Positions 8,937 to 12,635 of a stretch of 64,000 bases of DNA are shown here, piece after piece. The stretch is from assembly GCA_001314865.1 (NCBI GenBank), contig LJZR01000016.1:1-64000 (forward strand), written 5' to 3'. The number at the start of each line of letters is the position of its first letter. Position 1 is the stretch's first letter. The position numbers were made by a program, and so were the translations under genes. The stretch is from Phormidesmis priestleyi Ana (GTDB lineage Bacteria > Cyanobacteriota > Cyanobacteriia > Phormidesmidales > Phormidesmidaceae). Below the pieces are notes generated by a model that was not told the origin of the DNA, made no database searches, and saw only the letters and a list, made by a program, of their open reading frames with translations.

Positions 8937-9959
8937 ATGCGGCGTCTGCTGCTTATTTCGTTGGTAACTATTCCATTAACCGGTTGCCAATTTTTCAACC
9001 GAGACGGCAACACCGTTGTCGATATTGTTGAGTCTGTTGAGTCTGGGGAAGCTTTAGATGGGATTTCGGTGCCTCAGCTAGATGGCAATGGGCAGGCGGA
9101 GCCTGAAAAGGAAGCCTTTGATTCTCCCACTGTAGAAAAGAAACCTGGGGCTGTGGTATCTGCTGATTTGATTAACTCAACCGATCCGGATGCTCGGGCA
9201 AAATCGGTTGCTCGCAATCGAACCGATCCATTTGCAACGCTACCGATTTTGCCCGAGCCAATCGTGATTGTTCCAGAAGTCAACACTCGAACTGCTGAGG
9301 CAGGTACTCGTGCGGCGAGTAATACTACTGCCAGTTCTGGTAATACTAGTAGACCTGTACCAGCACCGCCCGTACGAGTGCAGGCGCCTAATCGACCTTT
9401 GGTGATGCCTTCGCCGATTGCAACACTGCCCACTATTCCGCAGCCAATCATTGCTCCGACTATTTCGGTGTCGGGTGTGGTTCAGATGGGGAACGAGCAT
9501 TATGCGATTGTGCGTTCGGGCAACGAGCCTGAGCGATATGTGCGAGTAGGCGATCGCCTCGCTGGCGGCAGCGTTAGGGTAAAGCGGATCGAAACGCTGT
9601 CCTTTGAGCCTCGGGTTATTTTAGAAGAAAACGGAATCGAAGTTGTCAGGCCGATTACGAATGGTGAGTCGGTTTCTGAAGAAGAAGGACCATTTGCCTT
9701 TGCACCCAATGCCTTAGCGGTTCCTGCAGCGGTAGTACCTAGTTCGGGGCGACTACTTCCCATGATGCCTCCATCTGCAGCGCTGATTGCGCCAAGCATT
9801 ACTACGCCTAGTCGGACGACTCCGGGCGCATCGCAACCTGCTCGCTCGCTACCGCCTACGCCGGGATTCGTGCCTGGTTCACTGCTACTACAGCCTGCTG
9901 AATTAACTTCTCAAGCCGTTTTCCCTAACTTTAGGCTACCTCTGTCTGAGAGAGGCTAA
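8937..9959 (+). CDS. Proline-rich lipoprotein with a GspC/PilP-like domain
   Basis: The start at 8937 is chosen because GGGAGG lies nine bases upstream and the protein then begins with a lipoprotein signal (MRRLLLISLVTIPLTGC, lipid-anchor Cys17). The open frame extends back to a GTG at 8892. Long Pro/Thr/Ala-rich linkers surround a compact domain at about residues 178-242: SVSGVVQMGNEHYAIV, then YVRVGDRLAGGSVRVKRI and VILEENGIEVVRP. That pattern (a beta module with VGD and a trailing LEENG) resembles the HR domain of type II secretion GspC and pilus protein PilP. It could be a periplasmic adaptor of a pilus or secretion machine. The exact family is not certain. Confidence 0.72.
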   Translation: MRRLLLISLVTIPLTGCQFFNRDGNTVVDIVESVESGEALDGISVPQLDGNGQAEPEKEAFDSPTVEKKPGAVVSADLINSTDPDARAKSVARNRTDPFATLPILPEPIVIVPEVNTRTAEAGTRAASNTTASSGNTSRPVPAPPVRVQAPNRPLVMPSPIATLPTIPQPIIAPTISVSGVVQMGNEHYAIVRSGNEPERYVRVGDRLAGGSVRVKRIETLSFEPRVILEENGIEVVRPITNGESVSEEEGPFAFAPNALAVPAAVVPSSGRLLPMMPPSAALIAPSITTPSRTTPGASQPARSLPPTPGFVPGSLLLQPAELTSQAVFPNFRLPLSERG

Positions 9960-10021
9960 TCGAGTCTAGATTTTTCTGCCTGGTCAATAAACCATACAGC
10001 TAGCGGCTAAAGATTGCCTAT

Positions 10022-10056
10022 CAAAGGCCACCGAAATAGTCCTCGGTGGCCTTTTG
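10022..10056 (+). terminator. Rho-independent terminator after the lipoprotein gene
   Basis: The left arm CAAAGGCCACCGA (10022-10034) pairs with TCGGTGGCCTTTTG (10043-10056) over at least 12 bp, followed by a T-rich stretch. Confidence 0.9.
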
Positions 10057-10125
10057 TTTTGATAGCCGTCGCTAGGGCCGTCATCGGATGCATTCGTACG
10101 GTGACTGACCGCTTAGCCTTTAGTA

Positions 10126-10144
10126 CATAATGATTCTCACTATC
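10126..10144. promoter_or_regulatory. Fur-box-like site upstream of psaE
   Basis: CATAATGATTCTCACTATC matches 15 of 19 positions of the classical Fur consensus. It lies 277 bases before the first psaE and just after the terminator of the previous gene, so psaE is the only gene it could serve on the plus strand. Fur represses iron-related genes when iron is sufficient. Control of psaE is an inference. Confidence 0.5.
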
Positions 10145-10420
10145 ACTCGTGTAGGAAGCTAAGTCGCTAAAGCGATGGGGGGGGTAGAGAACGTAAGGGG
10201 GGTAGAAAACAGTGTCCTTATAAAGGCTCCCTTGAGGGAGAACAGTAAGCAGCTAAGAGGAAGCGGGAAGCAATCGATCTCTTTGTAAAAGTTATCTTTT
10301 TGCAGCAATAAAACTTAAACAGTAAAAGTTAGAGTTATTCCCAGCAGAGTAGTAATCTAAGGAGGCGAGTGGCTGCTAGTAGCTGCCGTTTTATCTAACA
10401 TTTTAAGAGGGTTAGTATTC
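10145..10420 (+). promoter_or_regulatory. Long psaE leader/promoter region
   Basis: This G-rich then AT-rich segment precedes psaE. It includes a strong AAGGAGG (10360-10366) that is not followed by a credible start codon, and AAGAGGG near 10406, which is the likely psaE ribosome-binding site. A short ATG frame at 10177 would give about 40 residues of no recognisable character, so I do not call it a gene. Confidence 0.4.
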
Positions 10421-10639
10421 ATGGTTCAGCGTGGTTCTAAGGTTAGAATTCTTCGCCCGGAGTCCTACTGGTATCGGGAAGTTGGCTCTGTTGCTTCAAT
10501 TGATCAAAGCGGGATTAAGTACCCTGTCGTCGTTAGATTTGACAAGGTTAACTATGCTGGGATTAATACCAACAACTTTGGCGAGTCTGAGCTGGTGGAA
10601 GTAGAAGCCCCTGCTAAGAAAGCTGCTAAGAAAGGGTAG
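10421..10639 (+). CDS. psaE: Photosystem I subunit IV (PsaE), standard-length copy
   Basis: PsaE is a small SH3-like stromal subunit of PSI that helps dock ferredoxin and supports cyclic electron flow. The 72-residue protein begins [18 protein letters not shown] and contains [23 protein letters not shown] split across the standard core, ending in a short Lys/Ala tail ([10 protein letters not shown]). AAGAGGG lies about 10 bases upstream of the ATG. A second psaE follows 245 bases downstream, after a strong hairpin. Confidence 0.96.
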
Positions 10640-10678
10640 ATTCAATTCACCCTTCGGATTGAATGCTTTAGTCATGAG

Positions 10679-10718
10679 CTTGTGTAGAGACCAATGAGAA
10701 ATTGTGTCTCTACACAAG
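10679..10718 (+). terminator. Hairpin between the two psaE genes
   Basis: A perfect 13-bp stem (CTTGTGTAGAGAC at 10679-10691, GTCTCTACACAAG at 10706-10718) has a 14-base loop and is followed by a T-rich stretch. It probably ends or attenuates the first psaE transcript. Confidence 0.75.
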
Positions 10719-10884
10719 TTTGGCTATTTTGGCTATTTGCTATTTTGTCTATATTAACGATCGAAAATATTCTTACGACGAGTGTTTTGACTCGTGGGTT
10801 TGACTAGTGAGCTTAACTGAGCTTAACAATGTGACAGAATAAAACAATGTCATACTGTTAAACTCACTAGCTTGTCTATTTTTT

Positions 10885-11394
10885 ATGGTTCAGCGTGGTT
10901 CTAAGGTCAGAATTCTTCGACCTGAGTCTTACTGGTATCGAGAGGTCGGTTCTGTCGCGTCGGTCGATACCAGTGGCATTAAGTATCCGGTTGTGGTGCG
11001 CTTTAGTAAGGTTAATTACTCTGGTATAAACACTAATAATTTTTCAGTAGCTGAGCTAGAAGAGGTTGAACCGCCTAGTCAGGCGGATGCTGCTAAGAAT
11101 GCGGCTGCTAAGAATGCGGCAGCGCAAAAAACAGCAAAGACTGCGACTCAGAAATCTGCGATTCAGAAATCGGGTGGCAGATTTACAGACCAGTCGGCGA
11201 GCCAGTCTAATGACCAATCAGCAGGTCAATCGGTGGGTCAACCGGTGGATGTTGCCGCTGGCAAGCCAACGACAGGGAAGCCAATTGATAGTGCTGTCTA
11301 TGGTAAGGGCTCTGCAAACATGGCTGACAGCATCAGTCAAGATAAGCCGGTTTATCGAAACCCAGCGCCCAAAGCAAAGAGTAAGAAGCTTTAG
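10885..11394 (+). CDS. psaE: Second PsaE copy with a long C-terminal extension
   Basis: The first 62 residues differ from the upstream PsaE at only about eight positions and keep the whole SH3-like core. About 107 further residues follow: an Ala/Lys stretch (built partly from a 15-bp repeat at 11089-11118), a Ser/Gln/Asp-rich stretch, and a basic end ([10 protein letters not shown]). Normal PsaE is about 65-75 residues, so the tail more than doubles it. No membrane helix is visible. No Shine-Dalgarno is obvious before the ATG, unlike the first copy. The tail may be disordered and could tether PSI to a partner; that is speculation. The gene is followed by mutM. Confidence 0.9.
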
Positions 11395-11397
11395 CGT

Positions 11398-11431
11398 TGC
11401 TAGCGCATTGCGAGTGCTAGCGCATTGCGAG
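11398..11431. repeat. 17-bp direct repeat, two copies
   Basis: TGCTAGCGCATTGCGAG occurs at 11398-11414 and again at 11415-11431, immediately after the second psaE stop codon. Confidence 0.9.
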
Positions 11432-11487
11432 ATAGTACAGTTGGCATTGCATAATTATATTGCTGAAAACTTTGCTGGAAACTTATA

Positions 11488-12345
11488 GTGCCTGAGCTAC
11501 CAGAGGTAGAGACTGTTCGTCGTGGGCTGAGCCGAGTCTCGCTCAATCAACCGGTGAGGGGGGGAGAGGTTCGGTTGGCCCGGACGATTGCTTTTCCTGA
11601 GCGAGCGGAGGACTTTTTGCCGGGAGTAGAAGGGAGTCAGTTGGTTGCTTGGCATCGTCGTGGGAAGTACCTGCTAGGTGAGTTGCAGCGATGCGCCAAT
11701 ACGGGGTTAGAGCCTGCGGGATGGCTAGGTGTGCATTTGCGGATGACGGGGCAACTGCTGTGGGTGAATCAAGGTGAGGAATTACAAACACACTGTCGGG
11801 TGCGACTGTTTTTTGATGGCGATCGCGAGTTGCGCTATGTCGATCAGCGAACGTTTGGACGGCTATGGTGGGTGCCGCCGAGTGAGTCTGTCGAGTCGGT
11901 AATGACAGGCTTACAAAAGCTAGGGCCGGAACCTTTTTCGGCTGAGTTTTCGGTGGCCTATTTGGCGAATGCCCTCAAAGGCCGAAAAAGGCCGATTAAG
12001 AATGCGCTGTTGGATCAATCGCTGGTAGCAGGTGTTGGCAATATTTATGCCGATGAGGCGCTGTTTATGAGCGGCATTCGGCCTATGGTGATGTGCGATC
12101 GCCTTAGCAAGCAGCGAGTTGCTCGACTGCATGAAGCGGTTATTCAGGTGCTAAAAACCAGCATTGAATCGGGTGGAACAACCTTTAGTGATTTTCGGGA
12201 TGTGCATGGCACAAATGGCAATTACGGCGGCGTAGCCTGGGTATATGGGCGAAAGGACGAACCTTGTAGAACCTGCGATCGCCCGATTGTGAAGTTGCAG
12301 CTAGCGGGTCGCTCGGCTCACTATTGTCCGAAGTGCCAGCGCTAG
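11488..12345 (+). CDS. mutM: Formamidopyrimidine-DNA glycosylase
   Basis: MutM/Fpg excises oxidised purines such as 8-oxoguanine and nicks the abasic site. The 285-residue protein starts at GTG with MPELPEVETVRRGL; after removal of Met, the catalytic Pro and Glu are at the N-terminus. It contains the H2TH region (KNALLDQSLVAGVGNIYADE), GGTTFSDFRD, and a C-terminal zinc finger (CRTCDRP...YCPKC). It lies directly downstream of psaE, a neighbourhood known from other cyanobacteria and sensible for cells under photo-oxidative stress. Confidence 0.95.
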   Translation: MPELPEVETVRRGLSRVSLNQPVRGGEVRLARTIAFPERAEDFLPGVEGSQLVAWHRRGKYLLGELQRCANTGLEPAGWLGVHLRMTGQLLWVNQGEELQTHCRVRLFFDGDRELRYVDQRTFGRLWWVPPSESVESVMTGLQKLGPEPFSAEFSVAYLANALKGRKRPIKNALLDQSLVAGVGNIYADEALFMSGIRPMVMCDRLSKQRVARLHEAVIQVLKTSIESGGTTFSDFRDVHGTNGNYGGVAWVYGRKDEPCRTCDRPIVKLQLAGRSAHYCPKCQR

Positions 12346-12419: not shown

Positions 12420-12635
12420 ATGCCGGTAAAAAAAGGTGATTTTGTTCGGTTAGTGCGAGAAAAGTTTGAGAATAGCTTAGAAGCTAAGGCAAGCGATCGC
12501 CGCCTTTCGAGCTATCTATTTGAAACAAGGGGCGAGATTTTAGAGACTCGCGATGACTACGCCCTAGTAAAGTTTGGCCGTGTACCGACGCCCAACTCCT
12601 GGCTAAAGCTAGACCAGCTAGAGAAGTTTGAATAG
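12420..12635 (+). CDS. ndhO: NAD(P)H-quinone oxidoreductase subunit O
   Basis: NdhO is a small cyanobacterial/plastid-specific subunit on the cytoplasmic side of the NDH-1 complex, which carries out cyclic electron flow around PSI. The 71-residue protein ([20 protein letters not shown], then [38 protein letters not shown]) matches the family along its whole length. It follows mutM by 75 bases and converges on ppk. Confidence 0.93.

Follow-up and report, generated by a model that had tools for sequence, protein, structure and literature searches.

What does a cyanobacterium gain from a second copy of PsaE that carries a long tail? PsaE lies near the acceptor side of photosystem I (PSI), where electrons leave the photosystem. 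In Phormidesmis priestleyi Ana an ordinary psaE gene (psaE1) is followed by a paralogue (psaE2) whose product extends 107 residues beyond the PsaE core. The sequence comparisons described here suggest that psaE2 is a real and old paralogue, apparently under selection, with a conserved tip at the end of its tail.

A tandem pair of psaE genes

The window (the whole stretch of DNA analysed, 64,000 nucleotides long) comes from P. priestleyi, which PMC4971617 characterises as a polar and alpine species; we draw no link from this to cold adaptation. Both psaE genes lie on the + strand, are intact and are separated by 245 bases. psaE1 (10421..10639) encodes an ordinary PsaE of 72 amino acids, and psaE2 (10885..11394) encodes a tailed form of 169 amino acids in which residues 2-61 match PF02427. 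Both proteins cover positions 1-60 of this model (121.3 bits for PsaE1 and 117-119.3 bits for PsaE2, cut-off 27) and both pass NCBIfam NF002745 (110.8 for PsaE2, threshold 88), and a profile search of the 5.93-Mb genome returned these two genes as its only PF02427 matches. Over their first 62 residues the two copies differ at eight positions (27, 29, 41, 46, 54, 55, 56 and 59). Downstream on the same strand are mutM (11488..12345; formamidopyrimidine-DNA glycosylase, assigned by Pfam) and ndhO (12420..12635; PF11910), both of which are ancestral neighbours of psaE as judged by synteny. Neither copy has an internal stop, each matches the family in full, and two other genomes of the genus have the pair as well, so the arrangement is more than a chance occurrence. 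A 17-bp unit is present in two exact copies directly 3' of psaE2 (11398-11431).

The original prediction for this locus had described two psaE genes 245 bases apart at these coordinates, about eight differences in 62 core residues, a 107-residue tail on the second copy that is rich in Ala/Lys and then in Ser/Gln before a basic end, and ndhO close by. Translation and PF02427 bear out the two genes, the core differences number exactly eight, and the tail and the PF11910 match are as described.

PsaE2 resembles the PF02427 family in its core over the full 60-position model, including the SH3-like strands in its predicted structure, but differs from ordinary PsaE by its tail, the conserved tip of that tail and its tandem position beside an ordinary psaE gene.

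Distribution and age of the pair

The original prediction had proposed a search for tailed PsaE in other genomes, and the tailed copy proved not to be confined to this strain. All seven genomes of the genus that were compared (G000, the genome of the window, and G001-G006) contain psaE, and three of them (G000, G002 and G005) contain two copies, always in the order psaE1, tailed psaE2, mutM. At the family level a PsaE match is present in 58 of 63 genomes, and the same three are the only ones with two copies. Of 12 relatives compared, 11 share the wider order psaE-mutM-ndhO, ten of these 11 having one psaE there; the contig of the twelfth stops inside mutM.

In a tree of flanking proteins rooted with G062, the three tandem genomes form one clade (support 0.955) with G004 as the nearest single-copy genome, G005 being represented in this tree by MutM and NdhO only and G002 by PsbO, SigF and part of MutM. 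In gene trees of the PsaE cores, which are too short to settle the duplication history, the PsaE2 copies cluster together (support 0.898 for DNA and 0.702 for protein) and not beside the PsaE1 copies of their own genomes. The duplication is old, as synonymous sites between the two copies of G000 are saturated (pS 0.82). The simplest and most likely history is that psaE was duplicated in tandem once, within the conserved psaE-mutM-ndhO neighbourhood, in an organism ancestral to one sub-clade of the genus. Alternatively, because PsaE2 sits apart from same-genome PsaE1 in the core trees, there may have been an earlier duplication followed by losses.

We also considered a phage origin of psaE2 and set it aside; the phage search matched only Prochlorococcus phage P-TIM68 (two records), over the core alone and at 53.7% identity. 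Among the titles and abstract openings listed for part of the matches in the open-licence literature, none dealt with a cyanobacterial PsaE that is tailed or encoded in tandem.

Selection on the PsaE2 core

The SH3-like core of PsaE2 is encoded by 62 codons (10885..11070, + strand) and corresponds to the confident region of an AlphaFold2 model, where five strands are predicted. The original prediction had named relaxed selection on the core of the tailed copy as an outcome that would count against its reading. The core is instead under purifying selection, with dN/dS of about 0.06 (0.057, 0.057 and 0.068 for the three species pairs) compared with 0.037, 0.049 and 0.085 for the PsaE1 cores of the same genomes, these being rough estimates at dS of 0.95-2.1. 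The additional loop within the core of PsaE2 from G002 may nevertheless reflect some relaxation.

Two of the positions that distinguish the copies do so across species. Position 46 is Ala in all seven PsaE1 proteins of the genus and Ser in all three PsaE2 proteins, and position 55 is Glu in PsaE1 but Val, Met or Val in PsaE2. The PsaE2 states at both positions are common in ordinary PsaE elsewhere.

The PsaE2 tail and its tip

Most of the tail is a low-complexity basic linker (11071..11355, + strand) that cannot be aligned across the three species; short tandem repeats lie in the DNA that encodes the tail. With the division between core and tail used for this comparison, the tails are 108, 91 and 52 residues long, and the linkers range from about 37 to 96 residues. 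The tails end in a conserved tip of 12 residues (11356..11391, + strand), the three species sharing R[N/H]PAPKA[K/R][S/P]KK with identity at eight of 11 columns, whereas in 300 sets of shuffled tails the best block reached only three to five identical columns (five in two shuffles). When the last 20 residues of each tail were removed, the best block among the linkers was three columns, no better than in shuffled sequences. The codons of the tip differ synonymously among the species; the sample in which the tip is conserved is small, at three species. All three tails are strongly basic: their net charges are +8, +13 and +9, and none of 41 other long PsaE tails exceeds +6.

A degenerate DNA pattern for the tip matched once in each tandem genome, within psaE2, and had no match in the other four genomes of the genus; by this exact pattern no second protein with the tip was found in the window's own genome. 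A slightly widened pattern matched at 77 places in 74 of 388 genomes of the class, three of them being psaE2 itself and the other 74 being counted at the DNA level only. At the protein level, 24 of the 106 distinct PsaE tails of the short class contain APKA[KR].?K (mean 0.35 and maximum 3 in shuffled tails). Many ordinary PsaE proteins have a C-terminus, APKAKxKK, that is similar to the tip, and PsaE2 can be read as a PsaE that carries its tip on a long leash. By the same token, the tip may add nothing, as ordinary tails already possess a similar basic end.

The AlphaFold2 model of PsaE2 (15-row alignment, mean pLDDT 62, pTM 0.37, weak beyond the core) places a helix at residues 66-80 with falling confidence, scores most of residues 74-149 below 50 and rises to 66 in the final block, which holds most of the tip. 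The tail is thus predicted to be disordered.

Expression signals

In an alignment of the three tandem genomes, the stretch upstream of psaE1 (10281..10420, + strand) shows conserved blocks, among them a GAGGG stretch that precedes the start codon. Upstream of psaE2, the alignment of the three spacers revealed neither a comparable conserved block nor a purine-rich stretch. A scan for sigma-70 promoters over 9900-11600 returned no promoter-like site on the + strand.

The spacer itself folds strongly: in the window its two halves give z of -6.3 and -4.2, and the spacers of G005 and G002 give -4.4 and -4.7. The window's spacer contains a hairpin with a 13-bp perfect inverted repeat 3' of psaE1 (10679..10718, + strand), in the half with z of -6.3. 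Across the three tandem genomes, the 107 nt that follow psaE1 gave z of -6.9, -2.9 and -5.8, and the region that follows psaE2 gave 0.5, 1.6 and 1.2. Folds after psaE in ten single-copy relatives were mixed (z from -3.4 to 1.9), some of them strong, and the psaE1 hairpin was not among the terminator-like sites reported by a terminator scan. These signals suggest that psaE2 is transcribed by reduced read-through from psaE1 beyond the hairpin and that it is translated weakly, in which case PsaE2 would probably be a minor isoform.

Other tailed PsaE proteins

In a sample of 388 genomes of the class, PsaE was matched in 373, of which 23 carry two copies, namely the three tandem genomes and 20 others. 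In 15 of these 20, a short PsaE is accompanied, at a separate locus, by a tailed PsaE whose C-terminus is NQGTE[S/A]R or closely similar. We built a profile from 23 such tails without their cores (..KQTPxxP..RxTGQG..NQGTE[S/A]R), which matched at 129 places in 115 of the 388 genomes. An open frame of at least 104 residues was present at 61 of these places, 58 of which proved on translation to be continuous with a PsaE core and three of which did not (G001, G035 and one of two in G262). A tail of this type is joined to PsaE in 58 of the 388 genomes. The profile scored the three PsaE2 tails no better than shuffled controls (E-values 2.7, 140 and 160), and we reject homology between the PsaE2 tail and this widespread tail. 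As the tail of PsaE2 is not of the NQGTE kind, tailed PsaE seems to have at least two origins.

NQGTE-tailed proteins resemble PsaE2 in having a PsaE core, a disordered-looking C-terminal tail and, in those 15 genomes, a short companion copy, but their tails are unrelated by profile and less basic, and the two genes lie apart. An example is PDB chain 7qco_V (126 aa), whose chain sequence includes the full long tail. We take 7qco to be the PSI tetramer of Chroococcidiopsis TS-821, and 7s3d is presumably the PSI of PCC 7335. In plants psaE is also duplicated (psaE1/psaE2), and the term psaE2 is used in Arabidopsis papers. That likewise gives two PsaE genes per organism, but the duplication has a separate origin, and the extra residues of several longer eukaryotic chains precede the core, unlike those of PsaE2. 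In the available portion of the paper on the TS-821 tetramer (PMC8760143), PsaE is named once, among the resolved subunits.

Further extensions were seen in single cases. One protein (L140:1498-2547, G246) has a PsaE core followed by about 289 residues with long hydrophobic stretches, in which only PF02427 was recognised; the same genome also has an ordinary PsaE (L158). The single PsaE proteins of G001 and G004 (L007 and L008) have an extension of yet another kind, and their C-termini, GKIPGEGDNTK and GDIPGEGNN, are alike.

A standalone relative of the NQGTE tail

The other 71 of the 129 profile matches are standalone ORFs or presumed to be so: 36 were translated and none had a PsaE core, and the remainder were judged from open frames shorter than 104 residues. 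The standalone form is present in all seven genomes of the genus, and in that of the window it is an ORF of 65 residues identified by the long-tail profile (G000 C68:33065-33262; L211:2566-2763). Three standalone sequences had no NCBIfam match and no Pfam match above cut-off; the lone sub-threshold Pfam match was a mucin repeat (E 0.17). Within the genus, its neighbours repeatedly include an SDR dehydrogenase and a topoisomerase-like gene; eight query loci revealed no clear recurrent neighbours outside the genus. A second standalone subtype (..TPLDERxRMTGQE..NQGT[ED]SR) was seen in genomes where the PsaE-joined form is present too (L229, L230, L250, L269 and L270).

The joined and standalone forms may be related by either fusion or fission. 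We considered whether they exclude one another, but 12 genomes have both. The uncharacterised standalone protein would, on these sequence relationships, be a candidate PSI partner.

Possible roles of PsaE2

We favour, at a probability of roughly 55%, the view that psaE2 has been retained as an alternative subunit of PSI, probably a minor one, equipped with a flexible cationic arm for docking. The idea of an alternative subunit was part of the original prediction; it gains support from a pair that recurs in three species, from a core that evolves under purifying selection and from the conserved tip, whereas the accompanying hint of a link to NDH-1, drawn from the proximity of ndhO, does not stand. 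The tandem duplication within the psaE-mutM-ndhO neighbourhood would have supplied psaE2, whose core would occupy, in a minority of PSI complexes, the place on the stromal ridge that PsaE normally takes. From the ridge, a flexible basic linker would extend and bear the cationic tip R[N/H]PAPKA[K/R]xKK. The likeliest use of such an arm would be electrostatic docking that concentrates an acidic partner locally, candidates being ferredoxin or flavodoxin, FNR and a phycobilisome linker. It might otherwise grip an anionic membrane or a neighbouring complex.

The main competing explanation, which we judge possible though clearly less probable, is that the core of PsaE2 is kept as a redundant copy for dosage, while its tail is tolerated low-complexity sequence grown by slippage and its basic end a leftover of the ordinary PsaE C-terminus without a new task. 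The short tandem repeats in the tail-coding DNA, the unalignable linkers, the basic ends of 24 of 106 short-class tails and the ordinary character of the residues at positions 46 and 55 would all fit such a copy, but the tip has been kept although linker length varies more than twofold, and all three tails are strongly basic. A role as a linker between PSI and the NDH-1 complex, at which the original prediction had hinted, is improbable: PsaE does lie near the acceptor side and ndhO is near the pair, but no feature of the tail suggests NDH, and the psaE-mutM-ndhO order with a single psaE in ten of 12 relatives marks the neighbourhood as ancestral and not specific to the tailed copy. We therefore reject the nearby ndhO as evidence for NDH.

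Least probable of all, in our estimate, is that PsaE2 is an isoform of the PSI made in far-red light (FaRLiP). Some genomes of the genus (G003 and G006) have a second PsaA/PsaB set, and pair-bearing G005 has a set beside PsaL on contig C146 that resembles this second set. However, G000 and G002 possess the pair but just two PsaA/PsaB genes, the pair is absent from G003 and G006, which have four such genes, and PsaE is not substituted during FaRLiP according to a statement in PMC8689207. As the pair does not track a second PsaA/PsaB set, we reject a far-red link. The four PsaA/PsaB matches of G005 (C146:18484-23150) are pieces of a single set adjoining PsaL, one with an in-frame TGA; they may reflect either misassembly or gene decay, and the assembly may lack a further set. 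Duplication of partner subunits alongside psaE was likewise rejected, as PsaD is single in all seven genomes and the additional PsaL matches in G003, G005 and G006 do not follow the pair.

If the conserved flexible arm of PsaE2 is real, it would be a simple means to steer electrons or to hold PSI beside a partner, and the presence of one short and one armed copy in the same organism offers a clean genetic test. More speculatively, and with less confidence than we place in the docking arm itself, PsaE with an arm may have evolved repeatedly and made the stromal ridge of some PSI a recruitment platform, here by a tandem copy with a cationic arm and elsewhere by a join to a small protein that also stands alone. 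Were this true, the join would mark the standalone protein, which the genome of the window also encodes, as an unrecognised soluble partner of PSI, and the NQGTE tail, which occurs on its own as well as joined to PsaE, would give a direct and testable lead to such a partner.
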